This document shows positions 6,493 to 32,648 of a stretch of 42,363 nucleotides of DNA, piece by piece; position 1 is the first letter of the stretch; every line of letters starts with the position of its first letter. The notes below the pieces were generated by a model, which had not been told where the DNA came from, did not search any database, and worked only from the letters and a program-made list of their open reading frames with translations. A program made the position numbers and the translations under genes. Origin of the DNA: Moraxellaceae bacterium (GTDB lineage: Bacteria; Pseudomonadota; Gammaproteobacteria; Pseudomonadales; Moraxellaceae); the NCBI GenBank assembly GCA_030684415.1, contig JAUXNL010000035.1, forward strand, positions 1 to 42,363. Direction: 5' to 3'.

Positions 6493-7991
6493 AGCGGAAT
6501 TACCTGAAATTTGCGGCGATATTGCTTGCCGTGGCGAGCCTTAGCGGGGGCCTCGGCTATTGGCTCGCCCAGCGTCCGCCCACCATGCTGATGACTACCA
6601 CAGAAGCTCCTTCGGATCAGGAACGCAAGGTGCTGTATTGGTACGACCCCATGGTGCCCAACCAGCACTTTGACCAGCCGGGCAAATCGCCCTTCATGGA
6701 CATGCAGCTCGTGCCCCGCTATGCCGACGAGAGCGCCGATGAAAGCGGCAACGCGGGTGGCATCACAATCAGCAGTGCCCTGACCCAAAACCTGGGCGTG
6801 CGCTATGCCACGGTCGAGCGCGGCCAGTTGCCGTCAGCGGTGGAGGCCCCGGCCAACGTGGTCTTTAACGAGCGCGATGTGGCCATCGTGCAGACCCGGG
6901 CCGCCGGCTTTGTGGAACGCGTCTATGCGCGGGCGCCGGGTGACGTGATTGCCCAAGGGGCGCCCTTGCTTGACATTCTGGTGCCGGAATGGGCCGGCGC
7001 CCAGGCCGAGTATCTGGCCCTGCAACGCAGCGGCGATGAGGACCTGACACGGGCGGCCCGCGAGCGGCTGCGTCTCTTGGGCATGCCAGAGGCAGCCATT
7101 CAGCGCCTGGTAAAAAGCGGCCAGACGCAAACCCGCTTCACGGTGACGGCACCGATTGCCGGCGTCATCCAGGCGCTGGACATCCGCCAGGGCATGACCG
7201 TCAGCTCCGGTATGACCGTGGCCCGCATCAACGGCCTGGCCACGGTGTGGCTGGAGGCGGCCGTGCCCGAGACCCAGGGCGGCAGCCTTGCCGTGGGCCA
7301 GCCGGTGGCCGCGCTGTTGGCCGCCTATCCCGGCAAGTCCTTTGAGGGCCGGGTCATCGCCCTCCTGCCGGAGGTGAATCCCCAGAGCCGCACGCTGCGG
7401 GTGCGCATGGAGTTTGCCAATCGAAGGCAGGAACTGCGGCCCGGCATGTTTGCGCAGGTGCAGCTGGATACGAAGGCGCAGCAGCAAATGCTGCTGATTC
7501 CCAGCGAAGCCCTGATCCGTACCGGCAAGCGCAATATCGTCATCGTGGCGGAAGGGGACGGGCAATTCCGCCCCGTCGAAGTCACCCCGGGCAGCCAAGC
7601 CGGCGGCAAGACCGCCATTATGGCGGGCCTGGAAGCCGGCCAGAAGGTTGTGGCCTCGGGGCAGTTCCTGATTGATTCGGAAGCCAGCCTGACCGGTGTG
7701 CTGGCGCAGATGAAGACGACGGCGGAGCAAGAGCCGGAGTCACAGGCATCGGCAGCGTCGGGTCTCATCGAAGCAAGTGGCGTGGTTGAGGCTCTGGGCC
7801 ACCAGGACATCACACTCTCGCACGAGCCCATTCCCGCCTTGGACTGGCCGGCCATGACCATGCCCTTTGCCCTCGACAAGGCGGCGTCCACGCAGGGCTT
7901 GAGGAAGGGCCAGCGCGTGCAGTTCGCTCTGGAAAAACGGGGTGATGATCTGGTGGTTGTCCGCCTCCGCGCGATGGAGGGCCGGCCATGA
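6489..7991 (+). CDS. cusB: CusB periplasmic adaptor with fused C-terminal CusF domain
   Basis: A 500-residue membrane-fusion protein. Residues about 8-26 form the membrane anchor. A heavy-metal-binding domain follows at about 48-78 ([20 protein letters not shown], then MDMQLVPRY), giving the Met ligands known in CusB. Barrel-sandwich and beta-barrel domains occupy about 95-410. Residues about 420-500 are an extra CusF-like domain: the signature [16 protein letters not shown] holds the His, Trp and two Met residues that bind Cu(I)/Ag(I) in CusF. In E. coli CusF is a separate chaperone, so here metal delivery and the adaptor are one chain. The gene overlaps cusC and cusA by 4 bp each. Confidence 0.92.
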
Positions 7992-10900
7992 TCGGTCGTT
8001 TGATTCACTGGTCCATTGCCAACCGTTTTCTGGTCATCCTGGCCACGGTTTTTATGACCGCCTGGGGTATCTGGTCGATCAAGATGACGCCGGTCGATGC
8101 GTTACCGGATCTGTCTGATGTGCAGGTCATTATCCGCACGAGCTACCCCGGGCAGGCCCCGCAGATTGTGGAAAACCAGGTGAGCTATCCGCTCAGCACC
8201 ACCATGTTGTCGGTGCCGGGCGCGAAGACGGTGCGCGCCTATTCCTTCTTCGGTGACTCCTTCGTTTATGTGCTGTTCGAGGACGGCACCGACCCCTACT
8301 GGGCGCGCTCACGGGTGCTGGAATACCTGAACCAGGTGCAGGGTCGCCTGCCCGCCAGCGCCAAGCCCGCTCTGGGGCCGGACGCCACCGGAGTGGGCTG
8401 GGTGTATGAATACGCCCTGGTGGACCGCTCGGGGAACCATGATCTTTCACAGTTGCGTGCGCTGCAGGACTGGTTCCTGAAGTTCGAGCTCAAGGCTCTG
8501 CCCAATGTCGCCGAAGTCGCCACCGTGGGGGGCATGGTCAAGCAGTACCAGGTGGTATTGGACCCGGCCAAGCTTGTGGCCTATGGCATCCCACAGAGCA
8601 AGATCATTGGGGCCATCCAGCAGGCCAACCAGGAAAGCGGCGGTTCGGTGCTGGAAATGGCCGAAGCGGAGTACATGGTGCGTGCCAGCGGTTATCTCCA
8701 ATCCCTGGAGGATTTTCGCGCCATTCCCCTGGGGCTGGCCGCCGGGGGCATTCCGGTGCGGCTGGGAGATGTTGCCACGGTGCAGATCGGCCCGGAGATG
8801 CGTCGCGGCATTGCCGAACTGAATGGTGACGGGGAAACCGTCGGTGGCGTTATCGTGCTGCGCTCCGGCAAGAACGCGCGCGAAACCATTGACGCCGTCA
8901 AAGCCAAACTGGCCGAACTGAAAGCCAGCCTGCCGGCCGGCGTAGAGATCGTGCCCACTTATGATCGCTCAGCGCTGATCGACCGTGCCGTGGACAATCT
9001 CAGCCATAAGCTGCTGGAAGAGTTTCTGGTGGTGGCCCTGGTGTGCGTCGCCTTCCTCTGGCATCTGCGCTCCGCGCTGGTGGCCATCATTTCCCTGCCG
9101 CTCGGGGTGCTGATGGCCTTTATCGTCATGCAGCACCAGGGCCTCAACGCCAACATCATGTCGCTGGGCGGTATTGCCATTGCCATCGGCGCCATGGTGG
9201 ACGCGGCCGTGGTCATGATCGAGAACGCCCACAAGCGCATCGAGGCCTGGCAGCACGAGCATCCGGGCCAGACCTTGCAGGGCGAGGCCCATTGGCGGGT
9301 GATTGGTGAGGCCGCCAGCGAGGTCGGGCCGGCGCTGTTTTTCAGCCTGCTCATCATTACGCTGTCGTTCATTCCGGTCTTTACCCTGCAGGCGCAGGAA
9401 GGCCGCCTGTTCGGGCCCCTGGCCTTCACCAAGACCTATGCCATGGCTGCGGCGGCCGGCCTTTCCGTGACCCTGGTGCCCGTACTCATGGGCTTCTGGA
9501 TTCGTGGCCGCATCCCCGAGGAGCAGCGCAATCCGCTCAATCGTTTCCTGATCGCGATCTACCAACCCTTACTGGACAAGGTCCTGGCCCGTCCCAAGAC
9601 CACATTAGCTATCGCGGTGCTGATTTTCTTGACAGGGCTGTTCCCGCTCTCTCGTCTGGGAGGGGAATTCATGCCGACCCTGGATGAAGGCGATCTGCTC
9701 TACATGCCCTCGGCCCTACCGGGGCTGTCAGCGGCCAAGGCCTCACAGCTGCTGCAGCAGACGGACCGCATGATACGCACCGTGCCCGAAGTGCAATCGG
9801 TGTTCGGCAAGGCCGGCCGCGCCGAAACCGCCACCGATCCCGCGCCCCTGGAAATGTTCGAGACCACCATCCAGTTCAAACCCCGCGAACAATGGCGCCC
9901 CGGCATGACCCCGGAAAAATTGGTCGAGGAACTCGACCAGGCGGTGAAAGTACCGGGCCTCAGCAATATCTGGGTACCGCCTATTCGCAACCGCATCGAC
10001 ATGCTGGCCACCGGCATCAAGAGCCCCATCGGGGTCAAGGTCTCCGGCACCAAGCTGGCCGACATCGACCGTATCGCTCAGGATGTGGAGCGGGTCGCGA
10101 AGACCGTGCCAGGCGTTAGCTCGGCCCTGGCGGAGCGGCTGACCGGCGGGCGTTATGTGGATGTGCGCATTAACCGCGAAACCGCCGCACGCTACGGCCT
10201 CAACATCGCCGACGTGCAGTCCGTGGTGAGCTCAGCCGTGGGCGGCGAAACCATCGGGGAGACCGTCGAAGGCCTGGCGCGCTTTCCCATCAATGTGCGT
10301 TACCCGCGCGAGCTGCGCGATTCCCTGGAAAACCTGCGGCAACTGCCGGTGCTTACTGAGCTGGGGCAGCAGATCACGCTCGGCACCGTCGCGGACATCC
10401 AGGTCACCGATGGCCCGCCCATGCTCAAGAGTGAGAACGGCCGACCCTCGGGCTGGGTCTATGTGGATGTGCGCGGCCGCGACCTGGCCTCGGTGGTCGA
10501 GGATCTGCACCATGCCATCCAGCAGCGGGTCAAGCTCAGCCCCGGTATCAGCCTCAGCTACTCCGGTCAATTCGAGTTCCTGGAGCGCGCCAATGCCCGG
10601 CTGAAGATCGTAGTGCCCGCCACGCTGCTCATCATCTTCGTGCTGCTGTATCTGATCTTCCGCCGGGCCGACGAGGCCCTGCTCATCATGGCCACGCTCC
10701 CATTTGCGCTCACTGGCGGCATCTGGTTCCTCTACCTGCTGGACTACAACCTTTCAGTGGCCACCGGCATCGGCTTTATTGCCTTGGCCGGCGTGGCCAC
10801 CGAGTTCGGCGTCATCATGTTGCTCTACCTGAAGCACGCGCTTTTTGAGCGCCAGGAACAAGGAGTGGCGATCACTACGCCGGTGCTAGATGACGCCCTG

Positions 10901-11140
10901 CGGGAAGGCGCGGTGTTGCGCGTGCGGCCCAAGGCCATGACCGTCGCCGTGATCCTGGCCGGTCTGCTGCCCATCCTGCTGGGCAGCGGCACCGGCTCCG
11001 AGGTCATGAGCCGCATTGCCGCGCCCATGGTGGGCGGCATGATCACGGCGCCGCTGCTATCGCTCTTTCTGATTCCTGCGGCCTACCGACTGATGCGACA
11101 GCGCCGAGAACGTAGCGAGCCGGAGGCCTCTCATGATTAA
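7988..11140 (+). CDS. cusA: CusA Cu(I)/Ag(I) efflux RND permease
   Basis: A 1050-residue heavy-metal RND pump. It exports monovalent copper and silver from periplasm and cytoplasm through the CusBC channel using the proton gradient. The three methionines that bind metal in E. coli CusA fall at the same numbers: Met573 (LLYMPS), Met623 (PLEMFET) and Met672 (RIDMLATG). The TM4 signature [15 protein letters not shown] is that of the HME4 (Cu/Ag) class, not the divalent class. Twelve membrane helices are implied (first about 13-31, last group about 870-1035). The gene is intact. A diverged partial copy of its 3' part lies at 15294-16016. Confidence 0.95.
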
Positions 11141-11589: not shown

Positions 11590-11871
11590 TCACTTTGGTT
11601 TCTGCACGGTGGCGGGATAGCCCGCGCTCGTGGTTGCCCGGATCAGAATTTCCGGCCGGGTTTGGTCGGGGTCATAGCTGACCGTGGCCGTTTTCTGCTG
11701 AAAATCGACCGTGGCCGCGCTCACCCCCGGCACCTTTTCCAGTGCCTTGCGGACGGTGATCGGACAGAGTTGGCAGGTCATGTTTTGCACGGAAAGCACG
11801 ACCGTTTGTGGGGTTCCCGCCCAAGCCGGCAGGGTGAGTAGCGCGATGAGCAGCAGGATCAGGCGGCGCAT
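11590..11871 (-). CDS. merP: MerP-like periplasmic mercury-binding protein
   Basis: A 93-residue protein with a signal peptide (MRRLILLLIALLTLPAWAG) and a heavy-metal-associated domain. The metal site is MTCQLCPITVRKALEKVPGV, with the two Cys of the GMTCxxC motif. The ATG at 11871 follows an AGGAG sequence. In mer systems MerP scavenges Hg(II) in the periplasm and passes it to MerT. The gene lies 20 bp after merT. Confidence 0.88.
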   Translation of the reverse strand: MRRLILLLIALLTLPAWAGTPQTVVLSVQNMTCQLCPITVRKALEKVPGVSAATVDFQQKTATVSYDPDQTRPEILIRATTSAGYPATVQKPK

Positions 11872-11891
11872 GATGAGGTCTCCTCTTTTGA

Positions 11892-12239
11892 TCAATTGAA
11901 TAGCGGGACCAGCCAAGGCACGACCAACAGGCCCAGCAGTAGCGGTCCCACCAGCCAGAACAGCAGGCGCTGGCGGTGCAACACGGTGGGATCGGCACAG
12001 GGCGTGCCTGGCACGCAGACTGGCCGCTGGAGATAGAGCCGGTAAAAGGCCCAGCCCAAAAAACCCACAGTCAAGGCCACAAAAAGTGGCCGGTAAGGTT
12101 CCATGCGGGTCAGGTAGCTGACCCAGGCACCACCGATGCCCAAGGACAGCAGGATCAGGGGCGCGACGCAGCACAAGGAGGCGCCGATACTGGCCAGGGC
12201 TGCAGCCAGCAGGTACTTGGGGGAGGACCAACTTTGCAT
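11892..12239 (-). CDS. merT: MerT mercuric-ion transport protein
   Basis: A 115-residue inner-membrane protein with three helices (about 8-35, 45-62, 90-112). The vicinal cysteine pair in ASLCCVAPLILLSLGIGGAW on the first helix and the loop Cys pair in CVPGTPC are the expected Hg(II)-relay residues of MerT. It would carry Hg(II) from MerP into the cytoplasm. It is the first gene of the divergent mer operon, reading away from merR. No mercuric reductase gene accompanies it in this window. Confidence 0.92.
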   Translation of the reverse strand: MQSWSSPKYLLAAALASIGASLCCVAPLILLSLGIGGAWVSYLTRMEPYRPLFVALTVGFLGWAFYRLYLQRPVCVPGTPCADPTVLHRQRLLFWLVGPLLLGLLVVPWLVPLFN

Positions 12240-12260
12240 GGCTTACTCCGTGGTAGTGAT

Positions 12261-12300
12261 CAGGGTGTATGATAAACCCTGTACCGCGGTACGGAATCAA
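12261..12300 (-). promoter_or_regulatory. mer operator-promoter (MerR-controlled, for merTP)
   Basis: On the minus strand a -35 TTGATT (12295-12300) and a -10 TATCAT (12269-12274) are separated by 20 bp, the over-long spacer typical of MerR-activated promoters. The perfect palindrome GTACCGCGGTAC (12281-12292) fills the spacer, as in known mer operators. A second dyad, CAGGGT (12261-12266) with ACCCTG (12276-12281), overlaps the -10. A plus-strand TATGAT (12268-12273) could be the merR -10. Confidence 0.85.
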
Positions 12301-12310
12301 GAGGTGGGCC

Positions 12311-12754
12311 ATGAGTGACTTACTCTCCATCGGTCAGCTGGCGTCCGCCGGCGGGGTCGGCGTGGAAACCGTCCGCTACTACCAGCGGCGTGGCCTGCTG
12401 GCGGAGCCGAACAAGCCCTTGGGCGGCCACCGGCGCTATCCGGCAAGGATGATCCAGCAGCTGCGCTTTATCCGGCGCGCCCAGGCCCTGGGTTTCACGC
12501 TGGAGGAAATCGAGGTGCTGCTGCAACCGCATACGGATGTCTGCGGCGACACTCGGGCCCTCGCCGTGCACAAGCTCGACCTGATCGATCAGAAAATCCA
12601 AACGTTGACCGACATGCGCGCGGCGCTGGCGGGACTGGTCGTGCGCTGTGCCCAAGCACCGTCAGAGCAGTGCCCGATCATTGAAGCCCTGTTCGAGGCC
12701 AGCGCCGGCGACGCTTGGTTCCATGCAGATGCAGAACGGCGGCCCCATGATTGA
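12311..12754 (+). CDS. merR: MerR mercury-responsive regulator
   Basis: A 147-residue MerR-family activator. The DNA-binding region holds VETVRYYQRRGLL and GGHRRYP. The three Hg(II)-binding cysteines are present: Cys78 (VCGD), Cys113 (VVRC) and Cys121 (SEQCPI). The first spacing (35) matches Tn501 MerR; the second is one residue shorter. It represses and, with Hg(II), activates the divergent merTP promoter. The ATG at 12311 is used because earlier in-frame codons would run into the operator. Its last 8 bp overlap the start of the tyrosine recombinase gene, so the two are translated from one transcript. Confidence 0.92.
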   Translation: MSDLLSIGQLASAGGVGVETVRYYQRRGLLAEPNKPLGGHRRYPARMIQQLRFIRRAQALGFTLEEIEVLLQPHTDVCGDTRALAVHKLDLIDQKIQTLTDMRAALAGLVVRCAQAPSEQCPIIEALFEASAGDAWFHADAERRPHD

Positions 12755-13694
12755 CCAGTATCTTGATGCCGCGACCCGACCACAGACCCGCCGTAGCTAC
12801 CGGGCGGCCATTGAGCATTTTGAAGCGGAATGGGGTGGTTTCTTGCCGGCCACGGCCGACAGCATCGCCCGTTACCTAGCCACTTATGCGGGGCAACTGG
12901 CGGCCAATACGTTGAAACTGCGGCTGGCCGCCCTGGCCCAATGGCATATCGACCAAGGTTTTCCGGATCCGACTAAGGCGCCCGTCGTCAAAAAAGTCCT
13001 GAAAGGGATTCGTGTGCTGCATCCGGCGCGGGAAAAACAAGCCGTGCCATTGCAGTTGCACCAATTGGAGCAGTTGGCGGCCTGGCTCATGACCAAAGAG
13101 CAAGAGGCGGCCAGGGCAGATGATCAGGCTCAGCGGCTGCGTTGCTGCCGGGATCGGGCCTTGATCCTGTTGGGCTTCTGGCGGGCATTCCGGAGCGACG
13201 AACTCTGTCGATTGCGCATCGAGGACAATGCATTGCACCCCGGGCAAGGCTTGGCGCTTTTTCTGCCGCGCAGCAAGAGCGATCGACGCAACGAAGGAAC
13301 CCACTTCAAAGTACCGGCACTCAGCCGATTGTGTCCGGTGGAGGCGTACCAGTCCTGGATGGAGCTGTTGCCTCGACAACAAGGCCCCGTGTTCTGCGCC
13401 GTCGATCGCTGGGGACATGCTAGCGACAGCGCATTGCATCCCAACAGCATCATTCCCTTGCTGCGGATACGCTTACAAGAGGCGGGCATCAGCGATGCCG
13501 ATTTGTACAGCAGCCATTCCTTGCGCCGTGGCTTTGCCACTTGGGCCAATGGCCAGGGCTGGGATGTGAAAGCGCTGATGGAATATGTCGGCTGGAAGGA
13601 TATGAAGTCCGCCTTGCGCTACATCGACGCGACGCCTCATTTTGGTGACGCGCTTGCTCTTCATGCCGTTCCCGCCGTCCCGCTAGCAAAATAA
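12747..13694 (+). CDS. Tyrosine recombinase of Tn3-type transposon (module A)
   Basis: A 315-residue phage-integrase-type recombinase. The start at 12747 is set by alignment with the second copy at 28141 (MIDQYLDAATR against MTVDRYIDAATR). The N-terminal SAM-like DNA-binding domain spans about 1-105. Catalytic residues appear as Arg in AFRSDEL, Lys in PRSKSD, His and Arg in SSHSLRRGF, Trp in YVGWKD and the nucleophile Tyr in ALRYID. Its place just before a Tn3-family transposase suggests a TnpI-like cointegrate resolvase. It overlaps the end of merR by 8 bp and has no promoter or obvious resolution site of its own. Its extreme C-terminus differs from that of the second copy. Confidence 0.82.
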   Translation: MIDQYLDAATRPQTRRSYRAAIEHFEAEWGGFLPATADSIARYLATYAGQLAANTLKLRLAALAQWHIDQGFPDPTKAPVVKKVLKGIRVLHPAREKQAVPLQLHQLEQLAAWLMTKEQEAARADDQAQRLRCCRDRALILLGFWRAFRSDELCRLRIEDNALHPGQGLALFLPRSKSDRRNEGTHFKVPALSRLCPVEAYQSWMELLPRQQGPVFCAVDRWGHASDSALHPNSIIPLLRIRLQEAGISDADLYSSHSLRRGFATWANGQGWDVKALMEYVGWKDMKSALRYIDATPHFGDALALHAVPAVPLAK

Positions 13695-13717: not shown

Positions 13718-15310
13718 ATGAGTAGCGTCAACGAAACCGCATATCCCCAGCTCAAAGCCGAATTTACCCTCAAGGAACTGCGCGGCATTTACACGCCGTC
13801 GCCAGCCGAACAGGGCTTTGTCTTCAGCCAGTATCGGCAGGCTCCTACACGTGCCTGCCTGCTGATCCAGCTCAAGGTGCTGCAACGCCTCGGCTACTTC
13901 ATGCCGCTTCGCCAGTTGCCACGACCAGTCGTCGAACACGTGTGCGAGTGTGCCGGTTTGCGGCCACCCACACCCTCGGCCCTGACCACCTATGACAAAT
14001 CCGGCAGCAAATCGCTGCATCAACAACGCATACGAACCCATCTCAACATTCGGCAAATGGATGCCGCCGCTTGGCGCTGGCTTGACAGCATTGCTCACAA
14101 GGCGGCCGCCACCAAGCAGGAGTTGCCAGACATTATCAATGTTTTGATTGAGGAATTGGTCCGACAGCGGTATGAGCTGCCTGGTTTTACGCGCCTGTCA
14201 AAACTTGCCGCACAGGCACGTGTCACGGTGAATGAACAAATCTATCAGCAGGTGATGGGGCGACTCACGCCGACCGACATCCAGCGTTTGGACCGCCTGT
14301 TACAGCCAGGCTCCAGCGGCAGTCGGTGGGATGATCTGAAGCGAGAACCCAAGCGCCCGACGGTTCGTGAAATAGCCAGCTTTCTCAAACATATTGCCTG
14401 GCTTCAGGAGTTAGCACAGGGACTGCCCGTCGTCACCGATATTGCCGCCACCAAACGTGCGCAGTTGACCCTGGAGGCCCGCGCTCTGGACCAGGCAGAG
14501 ATGCGTGACCTGCGGCCCGAGAAACGCTATACCCTCGAAGTGCTCTTGCTGCGTTCGCAGCTGCAGAAAGCGATGGACGATGTTACCGAGATCTTCATCA
14601 AAACACTGGCGGGCATGCACCGGTCTGCCGAACTTCGCCTGCAGGAGTATCGTCTGAAACAGGCCGAGCAGGTGGATCGCCTGGTCATCCAGTTCCGCGA
14701 TTTACTGTCCGTCATCGAGGATGACGAGACCGCCCAGAGCTTGTCCACGCGAATTGCCGGGGCGCTTCAGGGCGAGCCAGCAATATGGCTAGCCCAATGT
14801 GAGGAATATCTGGCCTATGCAGGCAATAATGCCTTTCCTTTTTTGCTTAAGCCCTACGGTACGCTGCGTTCTTTACTGTTTCAGTGCCTGGAAGTCTTGT
14901 CACTGAGGCCCAGCTCGCAAGACGACAGCGTGCTGCACGTCTTGGCCTGGCTGAAGCAATATCGCTCCAGCCATCGTGAGTTCATCGGGGTAGACCGCCA
15001 CAACCTTGCCGACTTGGAACTGTCCTGGCTGCCCGAAAAATGGCATCGCCTAGTGTTCGGCAAAAAACCTGACGAGGGGGACACACTATTTCTGCACCGG
15101 AAATACCTGGAGCTGGCTGTTTTTTCCCAGATCATGCAAGACCTGAAGTCCGGCGATCTCTATGTTGAGCACAGCGATCAATATGACGACTACCGGGAGC
15201 ATCTGGTGTCATGGGAGGAGTATGAGCAGGAAATCGCTCAGTTCGGCGAACTTGTCGGCCTGCCCGTGGACGGCCAAGAGTTTGTGACCGCCTCCCATGC
15301 TCAAGAGTGA
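13718..15310 (+). pseudogene. tnpA: Tn3-family transposase, C-terminally truncated (module A)
   Basis: The reading frame gives 530 residues matching the N-terminal half of the intact transposase at 29150-32113 (about 987 residues). Homology stops at about residue 525 (GQEFVTA), after which the frame runs into a cusA fragment and ends (SHAQE). The whole catalytic part with the D-D-E residues is missing, so it cannot transpose. It follows the recombinase gene by 23 bp. The N-terminal DNA-binding half could still bind transposon ends and interfere, but that is speculation. Sequence divergence from the intact copy shows that these are two related transposons, not a recent duplication. Confidence 0.9.
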
Positions 15311-26628: not shown

Positions 26629-27765
26629 TCATACCACCAGGGCGTACCAGCCCTGATAGCCCACATACAGCCCGACCAAGAGGATCAAGCCGCCGGAGAA
26701 AAACGGCGCCTTGCGGGCAAACTCGCCAAAGCCGCTCCACCGTGAGCTGGCATGCTTCACGCTCAGCGCCGCCAGGATACCCGAGGCCACCATGGTCAGG
26801 GCCAGTCCAATACTGAAGCACAGCACCAGAACGGCTCCCAGTGTGAACTCCTTGAGCTGTAGGCAGAGCAGCAGCACGGTGATGGAGGCCGGACAGGGAA
26901 TGAGACCACCGGTCAGCCCGAACAATAGGATTTGCCCGTTGGTGATTTCCCGGTTGGCAAACCGACGACGAATGTCGTTGGCGTGCGCGAGCTCGTGCGC
27001 ATCCTGGTAGCCCGAACTCGCCTCCAACGCCGCGAACTCCTTCAGGGCGTGCGCGTGGCCGGGCTCGGTAAACTCCACATCAAAAGCATGGCTGTGATCG
27101 CCGTGGTGCATCGACAGGCGCACCAGAAACTCATGCGGTTCCGGAATCGTCTGCGATGACTCCAGATAATCCGATTTCTGCACGAGCGTGAACGGCATCC
27201 GGCTTCCGTCCGCGCGCTCGATCTCCAGCGAGTACGTTACCGGATGAGAGCGCAGCAGCCCGGTCTTTTGTGAGGCAGGTGCGTAGAGCCGGAAGCGTGG
27301 CGGCACATTATCTTCAAAAATCTCCAGCCGCAGCACGCCATGACCAGTATCGATCACCTTGGACGCCTCATGGGGGTGATCGTGATCATGTGAATGGTCG
27401 TGGTCATGGCCCGCCCCGTGCTGGTGGCGCCACGTCCGCCACAGCATCCAGGCTGCCACCCCCACGATCAGCACGGCCGAGGCCAGCTGAAAATACGGTT
27501 CCGAGGTCTCGGCATCCCAGCGTCCGCCAAAATGCAGGCCCACCAGCGCCACGATCCAGACCACGGCGGTATGCGAGAGAGTTGCCGCCAGCCCCAGCAT
27601 GACGGCCTGGCCGACGGTGCCGCGAATTGCCACGATGAAGGCTGCCATCATGGTCTTGCTGTGTCCCGGCTCCAGGCCGTGCAGGGCACCCAGCAGGATG
27701 GCACTAGGAATGAACAGCCAGGCATGGGCCGAGCCCTGCTGAAGCAAGGAAGCGAATTCAGTCAT
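26629..27765 (-). CDS. rcnA: RcnA/NicO-family nickel-cobalt exporter
   Basis: A 378-residue inner-membrane exporter of the NicO superfamily. The first helix has the motif LLGALHGLEPGHSKTMMAAF, the HxxExxH-type metal site of RcnA. A His/Asp-rich cytoplasmic stretch (HDHDHSHDHDHPHE, about 117-130) follows, then a long soluble insert (about 140-265) with more His, and four C-terminal helices including GGLIPCPASITVLLLCLQ. It exports Ni(II) and Co(II) from the cytoplasm. The insert is longer than in E. coli RcnA. It is the first gene of the leftward Ni/Co/Czc operon, driven from the RcnR-controlled region. Confidence 0.9.
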   Translation of the reverse strand: MTEFASLLQQGSAHAWLFIPSAILLGALHGLEPGHSKTMMAAFIVAIRGTVGQAVMLGLAATLSHTAVVWIVALVGLHFGGRWDAETSEPYFQLASAVLIVGVAAWMLWRTWRHQHGAGHDHDHSHDHDHPHEASKVIDTGHGVLRLEIFEDNVPPRFRLYAPASQKTGLLRSHPVTYSLEIERADGSRMPFTLVQKSDYLESSQTIPEPHEFLVRLSMHHGDHSHAFDVEFTEPGHAHALKEFAALEASSGYQDAHELAHANDIRRRFANREITNGQILLFGLTGGLIPCPASITVLLLCLQLKEFTLGAVLVLCFSIGLALTMVASGILAALSVKHASSRWSGFGEFARKAPFFSGGLILLVGLYVGYQGWYALVV

Positions 27766-27843: not shown

Positions 27844-28116
27844 ATGGCTCACATCCTCCGCGACAAGGACAAGCTGCTTGCCCGCATTCGCCGTATCCAG
27901 GGTCAGGCGGCCGGCCTCGAACGCCTGCTGGATGCGGGTAGCGACTGCCAGGAAGTGCTGCAGCAGATCGCCGCCATCAAGGGGGCCGTCAACGGCCTGA
28001 TGTACACCGTGCTGGAGGGGCACCTCGTCGAGCATGTAGTGCATGAGCCTGATGCCCGGCAGCGCGAGCAGGATTTTGAGGTGGTGCTGCAGGTGATCCG
28101 GTCATATTTGAAGTAA
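27844..28116 (+). CDS. rcnR: RcnR nickel/cobalt-responsive repressor
   Basis: A 90-residue CsoR/RcnR-family regulator, all-helical and tetrameric. The Ni/Co ligands of E. coli RcnR are all in place: the N-terminus plus His3 (MAHIL), Cys35 (SDCQE), His60 (EGHLV) and His64 (VEHVV). This fingerprint separates it from copper (CsoR) and formaldehyde (FrmR) members. It represses rcnA and itself by binding the G-tract operators upstream. The recombinase gene follows 24 bp after its stop on the same strand with no visible promoter or terminator between them. Confidence 0.93.
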   Translation: MAHILRDKDKLLARIRRIQGQAAGLERLLDAGSDCQEVLQQIAAIKGAVNGLMYTVLEGHLVEHVVHEPDARQREQDFEVVLQVIRSYLK

Positions 28117-28140: not shown

Positions 28141-29124
28141 ATGACGGTTGATCGCTATATCGACGCGGCGACTCGTGCCAACACCCGCCGCAGCTACCGC
28201 AGTGCCATTGAGCATTACGAGGCCGAATGGGGCGGTTTTCTGCCCGCGACGGCGGACAGTGTGGCGCGGTATCTCGCGGCCTATGCAGGTAACCTTTCGA
28301 TCAGCACCCTGAAGCTGCGACTGGCGGCGCTCGCACAATGGCATCTCGACCAGGGTTTTCCCGACCCGACCAAGGCGCCGATGGTCAAAAAGGTGCTCAA
28401 AGGCATCCGGGAATTGCATCCCGAACGTGAGAAGCAAGCGGCACCTCTGCAACTGAGCCAACTGGAACAGCTAGCGGCCTGGCTACTGCGGGAGGAGAGC
28501 ATGGCCAACGATGCGGGTGACAAGGCTCGCGGAATGCGCTGCCGCCGGGATCGTGCCTTGGTTCTATTGGGTTTCTGGCGTGCCTTTCGCAGCGACGAAC
28601 TTTGCCGCCTGCGCCTTGAGGACAGCGTGATTCATCACGGCCAGGGCCTGTCACTCTATCTGCCACGAAGCAAGGGGGATCGGCGTAACGAGGGGACGCA
28701 CTACAAGGTGCCGGCCTTGAGTCGCCTCTGTCCGGTAACCGCCTACCAGGCTTGGGCGGAATCAATGCCTCGGCAACACGGCCCGGTTTTCTGTGCCATT
28801 GATCGCTGGGGTCGTGTCAGCGACACGGCCATGCATCCCAACAGCATCATCCCCTTACTGCGAAGCCTTTTTCAGCAGGCCGGCATCGCCGATGCCGCGC
28901 TCTACAGCAGCCACTCCTTGCGCCGCGGCTTTGCCACTTGGGCCAATGGCCAAGGCTGGGATGTGAAAGCGCTGATGGAATATGTCGGCTGGAAGGATAT
29001 GAAGTCTGCCTTACGCTACATCGATTCGGCAGATCCCTTCCGACAGCAGCAGATCAACACCAGCCTGGCGCTCAGCGACCAGGTGTTAGTTGCGCTGACC
29101 GAGAATGCCGCCCCGATGGAATGA
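28141..29124 (+). CDS. Tyrosine recombinase of Tn3-type transposon (module B)
   Basis: A 327-residue phage-integrase-type recombinase, closely related to the one at 12747-13694. Catalytic positions are Arg (AFRSDELCRL), Lys (PRSKGD), His/Arg (SSHSLRRGF), Trp (YVGWKD) and Tyr (ALRYID). A C-terminal extension after the Tyr (QQQINTSLALSDQVLVAL) is longer than in the other copy. It starts 24 bp after rcnR and its stop lies 25 bp before the transposase start, so rcnR, recombinase and transposase form one transcription unit. It is probably the resolvase of a Tn3-type element (TnpI-like). No resolution site is evident upstream. Confidence 0.85.
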   Translation: MTVDRYIDAATRANTRRSYRSAIEHYEAEWGGFLPATADSVARYLAAYAGNLSISTLKLRLAALAQWHLDQGFPDPTKAPMVKKVLKGIRELHPEREKQAAPLQLSQLEQLAAWLLREESMANDAGDKARGMRCRRDRALVLLGFWRAFRSDELCRLRLEDSVIHHGQGLSLYLPRSKGDRRNEGTHYKVPALSRLCPVTAYQAWAESMPRQHGPVFCAIDRWGRVSDTAMHPNSIIPLLRSLFQQAGIADAALYSSHSLRRGFATWANGQGWDVKALMEYVGWKDMKSALRYIDSADPFRQQQINTSLALSDQVLVALTENAAPME

Positions 29125-29149
29125 TGTTGATCTTCTCGGACCACCGCTC

Positions 29150-32113
29150 ATGAGCCACATTGACGAAACTGCCTATCCGCAGCTGAAGGCCGAGCCGACT
29201 GCTCAGGAATTGGAGTCAATTTACACCCCCTCGGCGGCCGAGAAGACCTTTGTCTTTGCGCAATATCAGCGGCAGCAGACTCGCACCTTCCTGCTGATCC
29301 AGCTCAAGCTCATGCAACGCTTGGGCTACGTGCCGGCTTTGGCCACGGTGCCTGCGGACATCCTGCAGCATATCTGCAAGAAGGCCCGCCTGCCCAAGCC
29401 CGGCAAAGAGGCCTTGACACACTATGAACGCACTGGCCACAAAACCCGCCACATGCAGTGCCTGCGTAATTACCTGAAGTTGTCCGTTGTCGATGCTGAC
29501 GCACGAATCTGGCTCACGCAGCGCGCCGAACTGGCGGCACAGACAAAACAGGAACTGCCAGACATTATTAATGTGTTGCTCGAAGAATTGATCCGGCATC
29601 GTTACGAATTACCGGGCTTCACCGTTTTGTCGCGGCTTGCCCGGCAGGCCCGCACGGCCGTCAATGAGCGGTTGTATCTGGCGGTGGAAAAGGGATTGTC
29701 TCCGGTCACGATGTCACGGCTGGATCAGTTGCTGACGGGCCAGCCCGGCCGCAGTGGCTGGGATCAGGTGAAACGTGAACCGAAGCGGCCAACGGCCCGC
29801 GAGGTAGCGAGCTTTCTGCAGCACATCCAGTGGCTGATGGGTCTGGCCGAAGGGTTGCCGGCATTAAAGGATGTGGCTGTCACCAAACGCCAGCAACTGG
29901 TCTTGGAGGCGCGAGCCCTCGATATTGCCGAGATGCGCGCTCTCAAGGCGCCCAAACGATACACGCTTGCTGTGTTGTTGGTGCAATCGCAGATGCAAAA
30001 AGCCATGGATGATGTGGCCGAGATGTTCATCAAAACCCTGCGCAACCTACATCATGTTGCTGAGACTCGGCTGCAGCAATATCACCTTGAGCATGCCGAG
30101 CAGGTAGACAAGCTGGTGGGTCAGTTCCGGGAAGTGCTGAACGCACTACAAGACGTAAATGCGCCGGCCGAGCGCTTGGCGCGGGTGGAACAGGTCGTGG
30201 GCGATCCCGAGCCCTGGATTGCTCAGTGCGATGAGCATATTGCTTTCGCCGGCAACAATTATTATCCCTTTTTGTTGCAGCCGTACCGCGTTAAACGGGC
30301 CTTGCTCTTCCAGTGCCTAGAGGTACTGAGTCTGAAATCATCTTCGCAGGATGACTCGCTGCTGCAGGCCTTGTGTTGGCTGCGCCCCTATCGGAACAGT
30401 CATCGCGAATATATTCCGCTCGCCGGCCCGGACGAACTACCGTTGCACTGGCTGCCGGAAAAGTGGCGACGCTTGGTGCTGGGCAAAGGCAAGCCGAACA
30501 CACCGCCGGGGATGATCCATCGAAAATACCTGGAGTTATGCCTGCTCTCGCAAATCATGCAGGAGCTAAAATCGGGTGACCTCTATGTCGAGCACAGCGA
30601 CCAGTATGACGATTATCGGGAGCATCTGGTCAGCTGGGAAGATTATCAGCAAGAGCTGACAGCCTACGGCGAGATGGTGGGGCTGCCGGTAGAGGCCGAG
30701 GCATTTGTTAGCACCTTGCGGCAGGAGTTAGTGAGCCTGGCACTGCAGGTCGATGAGCGTTTTCCCGATAACGAGCATGTGGATATTGGCGAGTCGGGTT
30801 TGGTGATCCGCCGTACCGAGCGGGCACAACCACCGGCGCAGTTGGAGGCTATCGACCAAGCCATCATTCGGACCATGAAGGAGGTCAGCATCCTCGATGT
30901 GCTGACCGAGACCGAGCAGTGGTTGGACCTCTATCGCCTGTTCGGGCCGTTGTCCGGCTTGGAGGCCAAGATAGACGATCCGCGCAAACGGTTTCTCACG
31001 ACATTGTTCTGCTACGGCTGCAATCTGGGGCCCAGTCAAACTGCACGCTCCGTGAAAAGCCTGAGTCGCAAGCAGGTGGCTTGGCTCAACCTGCGCCATG
31101 TCACCGAGGAGCGTCTGGACAAGGCCGTGGTTAAAGTCATCAATGCCTACAATCGTTTTGCTTTGCCGCGATACTGGGGCACCGGCAAACACGTCTCAGC
31201 CGACGGCACGAAATGGAATGTCTACGAGCAAAACTTGCTTTCCGAGTACCACATTCGCTATGGAGGATATGGCGGCATTGGCTATTACCATGTCTCTGAC
31301 AAATACATCGCCTTGTTCAGCCGCTTCATTCCCTGCGGCGCCCATGAAGCGATCTATATTCTGGACCCCTTGGTGGATAACGAGTCCGACATCCAGCCGG
31401 ATACCGTGCATGGCGACACTCAGGCGCAAAGCGCCCCGGTCTTCGGGCTGGCCCATCTTCTTGGCATTAAACTGATGCCCAGGATTCGCGGGATCAAGGA
31501 GCTGACCTTCTTTAAGCCGGAGAAGGAGACGGAATACCAACATATCAGCCGGCTATTCACCGGCACCGTGGACTGGGACCTGATTGCCCGGCACTTGCCC
31601 GACATGCTGCGGGTCGTCATCTCCATCAAGGCGGGGAAAATCACCCCCTCCATGATCCTGCGTCGGCTCGGCACCTACAGCCGCAAGAACAAGTTGTACT
31701 TCGCCTTCCGCGAACTGGGGAGGGTGGTACGGACGCTATTCCTGCTGAATTACATCAACGACGTCGAGCTGCGCCGCACCATCCATGCAGCCACCAACAA
31801 GAGTGAGGAATTCAATAACTTCGCCAAATGGCTGTTTTTTGGCGGGGACGGCATCATTGCGGAGAACGTGCGTCACGAGCAGCGCAAGGTCATCAAGTAC
31901 AATCATTTGGTGGCCAACATGGTCATTCTGCACAACGTACAGTCCATGTCCCGGGTTCTGAAGCAGTTGCAGCAGGAAGGCCATCCGATTGACGAGGACA
32001 TTCTCAAGGGCTTGTCACCGTACCGGAACATCCATATCAACCGGTTCGGCGATTACATGCTGGATCTGCAGCGCAAGGTCGACCCCATCGATTTTAAAAT
32101 AACGTTTCATTAG
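29150..32113 (+). CDS. tnpA: Tn3-family transposase, full length (module B)
   Basis: A 987-residue replicative transposase, a normal length for Tn3 TnpA. The start at 29150 (MSHIDETAYPQLKAEPTAQE) matches that of the truncated copy. The N-terminal half binds the terminal repeats. The catalytic domain is in the second half: Asp in HVSADGTKWNVYEQ, Asp in VHGDTQAQSAPVFG and Glu in NKSEEFNNFAKWLFF form the DDE triad. The protein ends HINRFGDYMLDLQRKVDPID plus a short tail. It appears functional. Its stop codon (TAG) is the start of the 55-bp transposon end shared with module A. Confidence 0.95.
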   Translation: MSHIDETAYPQLKAEPTAQELESIYTPSAAEKTFVFAQYQRQQTRTFLLIQLKLMQRLGYVPALATVPADILQHICKKARLPKPGKEALTHYERTGHKTRHMQCLRNYLKLSVVDADARIWLTQRAELAAQTKQELPDIINVLLEELIRHRYELPGFTVLSRLARQARTAVNERLYLAVEKGLSPVTMSRLDQLLTGQPGRSGWDQVKREPKRPTAREVASFLQHIQWLMGLAEGLPALKDVAVTKRQQLVLEARALDIAEMRALKAPKRYTLAVLLVQSQMQKAMDDVAEMFIKTLRNLHHVAETRLQQYHLEHAEQVDKLVGQFREVLNALQDVNAPAERLARVEQVVGDPEPWIAQCDEHIAFAGNNYYPFLLQPYRVKRALLFQCLEVLSLKSSSQDDSLLQALCWLRPYRNSHREYIPLAGPDELPLHWLPEKWRRLVLGKGKPNTPPGMIHRKYLELCLLSQIMQELKSGDLYVEHSDQYDDYREHLVSWEDYQQELTAYGEMVGLPVEAEAFVSTLRQELVSLALQVDERFPDNEHVDIGESGLVIRRTERAQPPAQLEAIDQAIIRTMKEVSILDVLTETEQWLDLYRLFGPLSGLEAKIDDPRKRFLTTLFCYGCNLGPSQTARSVKSLSRKQVAWLNLRHVTEERLDKAVVKVINAYNRFALPRYWGTGKHVSADGTKWNVYEQNLLSEYHIRYGGYGGIGYYHVSDKYIALFSRFIPCGAHEAIYILDPLVDNESDIQPDTVHGDTQAQSAPVFGLAHLLGIKLMPRIRGIKELTFFKPEKETEYQHISRLFTGTVDWDLIARHLPDMLRVVISIKAGKITPSMILRRLGTYSRKNKLYFAFRELGRVVRTLFLLNYINDVELRRTIHAATNKSEEFNNFAKWLFFGGDGIIAENVRHEQRKVIKYNHLVANMVILHNVQSMSRVLKQLQQEGHPIDEDILKGLSPYRNIHINRFGDYMLDLQRKVDPIDFKITFH

Positions 32114-32165
32114 GAATAACAATTGGTTAGATAATAATTTGGCGCATTTTTCCAGAATCCCGGCC
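32111..32165. repeat. Right terminal repeat of Tn3-type transposon B
   Basis: From the transposase stop to GGCC at 32165 the sequence aligns with 16278-16289 plus 17473-17514 (transposon A after removing the IS110 element): TAG..ATAACA....GTTAGATA and GAATCCCGGCC are shared. Beyond it the two copies are unrelated, so this is the element's end. It starts GGCCGGGATTCTGGAAAAAT from outside, not the GGGG common in the Tn3 family. A matching left end was not found. Confidence 0.68.
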
Positions 32166-32648
32166 AACCCTCATTTCCCGGAAACCTGGCAAGAGGTCGT
32201 GCAATTCGATGACAGCGGCGAGAAGCATGTCGCTGATGTCCGCACCGCCAACGGCATGGTGATCGAGTTCCAGCATTCCGCGATCACCACCGCCGAGGCG
32301 CGCTCCCGCGAGCGCTTCTACAAGAAGATGATGTGGATCGTGGACCTGCACCGGAATCCCAACGAGTTCTACATGTTCAAGATGGGGCTGGAATTTGCCC
32401 TCTCCGGCATGCGGGACGGGGTGGTGGGCATGCCTTGGTACGGCCGCAGCAAGCTCCTGCACAACTGGTCATGGGCGTCCGTGCCCGTCCTCTTTGACCT
32501 GCGCATGGGTGACGACCTCTGGCTGTTCAAGGGCTTCGAGAAGGGGGAAACCATCGAGCACGTTGACCGCTACCTCGTGAAGCACATCTCCAAGCGCGCC
32601 CTCATCGAAAAAAACGGCGGCACCTATGCTGAAAGACAAGCTGATTGA
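32139..32648 (+). CDS. CoiA-like nuclease-domain protein, 5' end cut by transposon
   Basis: The reading frame (TTG start) gives 169 residues. From about residue 10 it matches the middle and C-terminal parts of CoiA-family competence proteins: HFPETWQEVVQFDDSGEKHV, then ADVRTANGMVIEFQHSAI with the D...E-x-Q nuclease core, and RERFYKKMMWIVDL. The zinc-finger-like N-terminal part of the family is missing. The first 9 residues are encoded by the transposon end, so the gene was broken by insertion at about 32165. The product may still be made but is probably not functional. The downstream gene overlaps its end. Confidence 0.7.
   Translation: MAHFSRIPANPHFPETWQEVVQFDDSGEKHVADVRTANGMVIEFQHSAITTAEARSRERFYKKMMWIVDLHRNPNEFYMFKMGLEFALSGMRDGVVGMPWYGRSKLLHNWSWASVPVLFDLRMGDDLWLFKGFEKGETIEHVDRYLVKHISKRALIEKNGGTYAERQAD

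Follow-up and report, generated by a model that had tools for sequence, protein, structure and literature searches.

The window, the whole 42,363-nucleotide stretch analysed here from a Moraxellaceae bacterium, carries, within one metal-resistance region, two paralogous genes for tyrosine recombinases of the TnpS type, each belonging to a Tn3-family (Tn4651-like) element. The first, tnpS-A (12747..13694, forward strand; Pfam Phage_integrase, 1.1e-11), has the catalytic motifs; its longest open reading frame spans 12648-13694, with homology to the second gene starting at 12744 and an ATG at 12747. The second, tnpS-B (28141..29124, forward strand; Pfam Phage_integrase), encodes 327 amino acids. 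The two proteins are 79% identical, and both are TnpS-family tyrosine recombinases with their catalytic residues in place. The pWW0 recombinase that is paired with tnpT, its gene divergent to that of the DNA-binding protein, is 63% identical to tnpS-B; this match is TnpS of Tn4651. TnpS and TnpT are described as a pair with the site rst between them (PMC7157771). A and B share the recombinase family and the catalytic motifs of this system (Tn4651 on pWW0, TnXax1, TnHdN1), but they differ from it in having neither a divergent tnpT nor an rst, and in having a metal-sensor gene abutting tnpS. They also resemble the TnpI/IRS elements (Tn4430, Tn5401; PMC7157771), in which a tyrosine recombinase gene lies directly upstream of, and collinear with, tnpA, although the A and B recombinases group with TnpS.

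A Tn3-family tnpA follows closely behind each tnpS, an arrangement also seen in TnXax1-type elements. Downstream of tnpS-B is a full transposase gene, tnpA-B (29150..32113, forward strand; the reading frame is 29105-32113, with a likely start at 29150), with a Tn3-type DDE domain (Pfam DDE_Tnp_Tn3, 1.9e-151; NF033527, 1.6e-223). Its counterpart tnpA-A (13718..15310, forward strand) is truncated: the N-terminal DUF4158 domain is present, the DDE domain is absent, and a fragment of an RND-pump gene takes over from about 15291. The two transposases are 60% identical in amino acids over 519 codons. The segment 15291-16016 duplicates 10415-11140 and is 88% identical to the 3' end of 7988-11140, an RND metal pump; the fusion of this fragment to truncated tnpA-A is the scar of a recombination by which element A lost its right end. 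Element B ends in a right terminal inverted repeat (GAGGGTTGGCCGGGATTCTGGAAAAATGCGCC...; 32133..32172, reverse strand) that recurs as the same end in relatives, and two complete elements (L077 and L078) carry it at both ends; a left repeat was not found within the window and could lie off the contig. A second copy of this right end, with the same 70 preceding bases of the tnpA end, sits at the start of another contig (G000:C289:71-88, L104), so the right end of element B occurs in the genome at least once more. At five other loci (L057, L073, L018, L020 and L025) the transposase that tnpS faces is of Tn3 type but only remotely related (20-25% identity), and it is encoded in the opposite direction.

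Both recombinase genes directly follow a co-directional metal-sensor gene: a merR-type regulator (12269..12754, forward strand) whose stop overlaps the tnpS-A start, and an rcnR-type metal repressor (27844..28116, forward strand) that ends 24 bases before tnpS-B. This arrangement is found well beyond the window. Of the 99 tnpS loci examined, 34, A and B among them, lack tnpT and have a collinear tnpA downstream. In most of these 34 another gene reading the same way runs into the tnpS start or stops no more than about 60 bases short of it; at the tnpT-bearing loci among the 99, no gene of that orientation was found at such close range. In at least 12 of the TnpT-less loci the upstream gene is a metal sensor: a MerR-family protein at A, L035, L039, L042, L044, L046, L038, L051, L087 and L097, and at greater distance at L063 (with L042, L051, L063 and L097 assigned by sequence likeness and not by the scan), RcnR at B, and a ModE-like HTH protein at L079. 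At several loci the sensor is divergent to a metal-transport gene, the corresponding genes in the window being an HMA-domain gene (11590-12330) and nicO (26629-27765). On the TnpS tree the sensor-beside-tnpS state requires nine changes, at least seven of them by well-supported branches; the sensor-tnpS-tnpA arrangement appears to have arisen repeatedly. We tentatively suggest, at somewhat less than even likelihood, that A and B represent a recurrent kind of Tn3-family module, from which tnpT and rst have been lost and in which tnpS-tnpA makes up the last part of a metal-sensor operon (merR, rcnR or modE-like, divergent from metal-transport genes), in which case expression of the recombinase and transposase would follow metal exposure. 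Many bacterial genes show operon-like spacing by itself, and metal cargo is frequent in the Tn4651-like/Tn3 transposon family; functional coupling to metal sensing is therefore offered here as a hypothesis.

The two recombinase genes share a patch of near-identity in their 3' parts. The sequence-only reading had reported that 13506..13627 in tnpS-A and 28903..29024 in tnpS-B (both forward strand) differ at only 5 of 122 positions, all silent, with identical runs of 53 and 26 bases, and we recover exactly this: the mismatches fall at 13517, 13529, 13556, 13610 and 13616 (copy A positions), every one of them silent, and separate identical runs of 11, 11, 26, 53, 5 and 11 bases. Outside the patch 226 of 774 bases differ over the tnpS core (about 71% identity); neighbouring parts had been put at about 70-80% identity, and the contrast holds, with homology elsewhere at 60-80%. 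That outside homology rules out a patch shared with tnpA or belonging to a longer segmental duplication, and no near-identical patch was found between tnpA-A and tnpA-B, whose closest 40-codon window has 29 differences. Where A and B share a degenerate amino acid, they use the same codon in 30 of 35 cases in the patch versus 81 of 189 outside. By the NG86 method dS is 0.24 in the patch versus 2.99, near saturation, outside it, and dN is 0 versus 0.16. The drop in dS is bounded, with a somewhat gradual left edge: silent divergence between A and B already eases somewhat at 13347-13526, upstream of the patch. The encoded protein, YSSHSLRRGFATWANGQGWDVKALMEYVGWKDMKSALRYI(D), is the HxxR...VGW...LRYI block of the recombinase catalytic domain; perfect protein identity is to be expected of such a catalytic HxxR...VGW...Y block, whereas identity at the silent sites is not.

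It had been argued that protein constraint alone would not keep the silent sites, and the excess of silent identity survives three controls, one of them using per-site conservation across 81 homologues, at P of about 1e-5 to 2e-4. An amino-acid-stratified shuffle of codon identity predicts 19.6 identical codons in the patch versus the 30 observed (P<5e-5). A column-specific expectation, drawn from 1478 homologue pairs of similar background divergence, gives 17.6 versus 30 (P=9e-6); in the same control, gene windows up to about 13433 match expectation and a mild excess appears from 13344 on. Finally, a whole-gene scan that weights each site by its conservation among homologues places the best A/B tract at 13518-13609 (P=2e-4), and ranks the pair 9th among 3299 tnpS pairs, strong but not unique. 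Site-specific family conservation, as tested by the column-specific and site-adjusted controls, falls short of explaining the patch. Partition trees place A and B as sisters both in the patch and in the rest of tnpS, with the A-B distance falling from 0.527 to 0.047 in the patch (11-fold), compared with a fall from 1.006 to 0.247 (roughly 4-fold) between A and its next relative.

The patch is likely, in our view, to be a short tract left by gene conversion or recombination, with one copy having replaced the corresponding stretch of the other, or a common donor having replaced both. This reading is backed by the confinement of the dS drop to the patch, by the placement of A and B as sisters in either partition, by the lack of silent conservation among homologues, and by similar tracts found elsewhere in the gene in other tnpS pairs. 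The earlier proposal was of recent gene conversion; the dS drop and the controls support conversion, but "recent" is too strong, since the tract has gathered five silent changes (dS ~0.24) and the event was thus not very recent. In the proposed course of events, the tnpS paralogues, or their ancestors in one cell, would first have diverged until their silent sites were saturated; the catalytic block, better conserved and hence more alike than any other part of the gene, would then have supplied the homology for overwriting, and the five silent substitutions would have been gained after the exchange. In genes that match at 70% elsewhere, strand exchange would be most likely to take place in the block of greatest similarity. 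We infer both the mechanism, homologous recombination, and the partners in the exchange, A and B themselves. Searches of 58 near genomes and of 369 from the same class found no relative closer than about 61-65% identity, and viral contigs yielded no relatives of copy A; with the nearest other relatives only about 60-65% identical, the exchange could have run in either direction.

The other tnpS pairs place the A/B tract in context. The strongest mosaic tract among all 3299 pairs joins two copies within one genome, that of Spongiibacter pelagi KMU-158 (L038 and L051), with 8 mismatches in 251 positions over the equivalent of 13053-13309, and another pair (L041 and L058) has 2 mismatches in 121 over 12750-12870. 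That these tracts fall at differing positions points to a general mosaic evolution of tnpS, as read from these alignments, and not to a special site. The A/B patch resembles the gene-conversion or mosaic tracts of bacterial paralogues in being a short tract with strongly lowered dS in an otherwise saturated pair, and in having similar tracts in other tnpS pairs; it differs in that its length and position coincide with the catalytic block. This coincidence weighs against conversion, since the tract falls where protein conservation is strongest and where, across the family, silent identity too is slightly elevated. So does the silent identity of other tnpS pairs, which reaches 0.83 in the patch versus 0.86 for A/B, and so does the inefficiency of exchange between genes only 70% identical.

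The alternative that survives best, though we regard it as unlikely, is that there was no exchange, and that protein constraint on the catalytic block combined with mild codon selection at conserved residues, shared host codon preference and chance to produce the patch. Silent identity in the patch is indeed raised by 0.037 across the family (P=0.006) and in pairwise bins lies about 0.08 above that of the remaining gene, and several unrelated pairs reach 0.79-0.83 there. The column-specific and site-adjusted controls described above allow for this, however, and leave the excess in place; moreover, other strongly conserved A/B blocks are without the effect, as in 12804-12923, where 10 identical codons are seen versus 12.8 expected.

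Much less probable is an assembly artefact in which reads from the two copies were mixed in a metagenome-type assembly. The genome is in 609 contigs, 84% complete and 5.5% contaminated, and the further right-end copy of element B lies at a contig start (C289), all of which would suit such an error; against it, five differences still distinguish the copies, and a single contig spans the two. The longest identical run, 53 bases, is probably also below the usual assembly word length, as commonly used words are probably longer than this.

We give least credence, and hardly any, to the other explanation that had been offered, in which a selected DNA site within tnpS, such as the missing resolution site, preserves the sequence of the patch. 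A substitute site is conceivable in a window that has neither rst nor tnpT: tblastn with two TnpT queries found no tnpT homologue there, and in a few relatives the rst matrix scores highest, though still weakly, within this part of tnpS. These scores (in L044, L045, L086, L087 and L090) were judged to be chance, the positions being silently variable. Between tnpT and tnpS, 20 relatives have in common a palindromic core that is plain to see and a second inverted repeat (GATAAT...TTATC); the core, exemplified by ATTACATACCATGTAATTACATAC and found with the repeat in L004, L006, L012, L017, L041, L092, L094 and others, provides a usable rst search profile. True rst sites score 37-63 bits with the core matrix, whereas the best score in the window is 2.6, within the shuffle range and outside the patch; the rst core is absent from the window. 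The silent conservation across homologues expected of an rst-like site is not seen either: degenerate patch positions vary throughout when A, B and 81 homologues (83 sequences) are aligned, with a family-wide excess in silent codon identity of only +0.037, and they vary in TnpT-less relatives too (silent identity of 0.473 in the patch vs 0.403 elsewhere). It had been foreseen that if silent sites in this segment varied freely in other homologues, only a conversion event would be left, and this is the outcome. The resolution site appears, from these searches, to be missing from the window, but the patch is not that site.

These results dispose of the notion that the recombinase gene conceals a resolution site; the A/B patch is real yet fairly ordinary. 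If it is the conversion tract that we favour, the paralogous recombinase genes of neighbouring transposons can swap short tracts of the catalytic core after saturating divergence, and such swaps distort trees of these genes. Should the metal-sensor reading be true, loss of the helper and the site, together with capture of a metal-sensor operon, would be a repeated route in this group of transposons.
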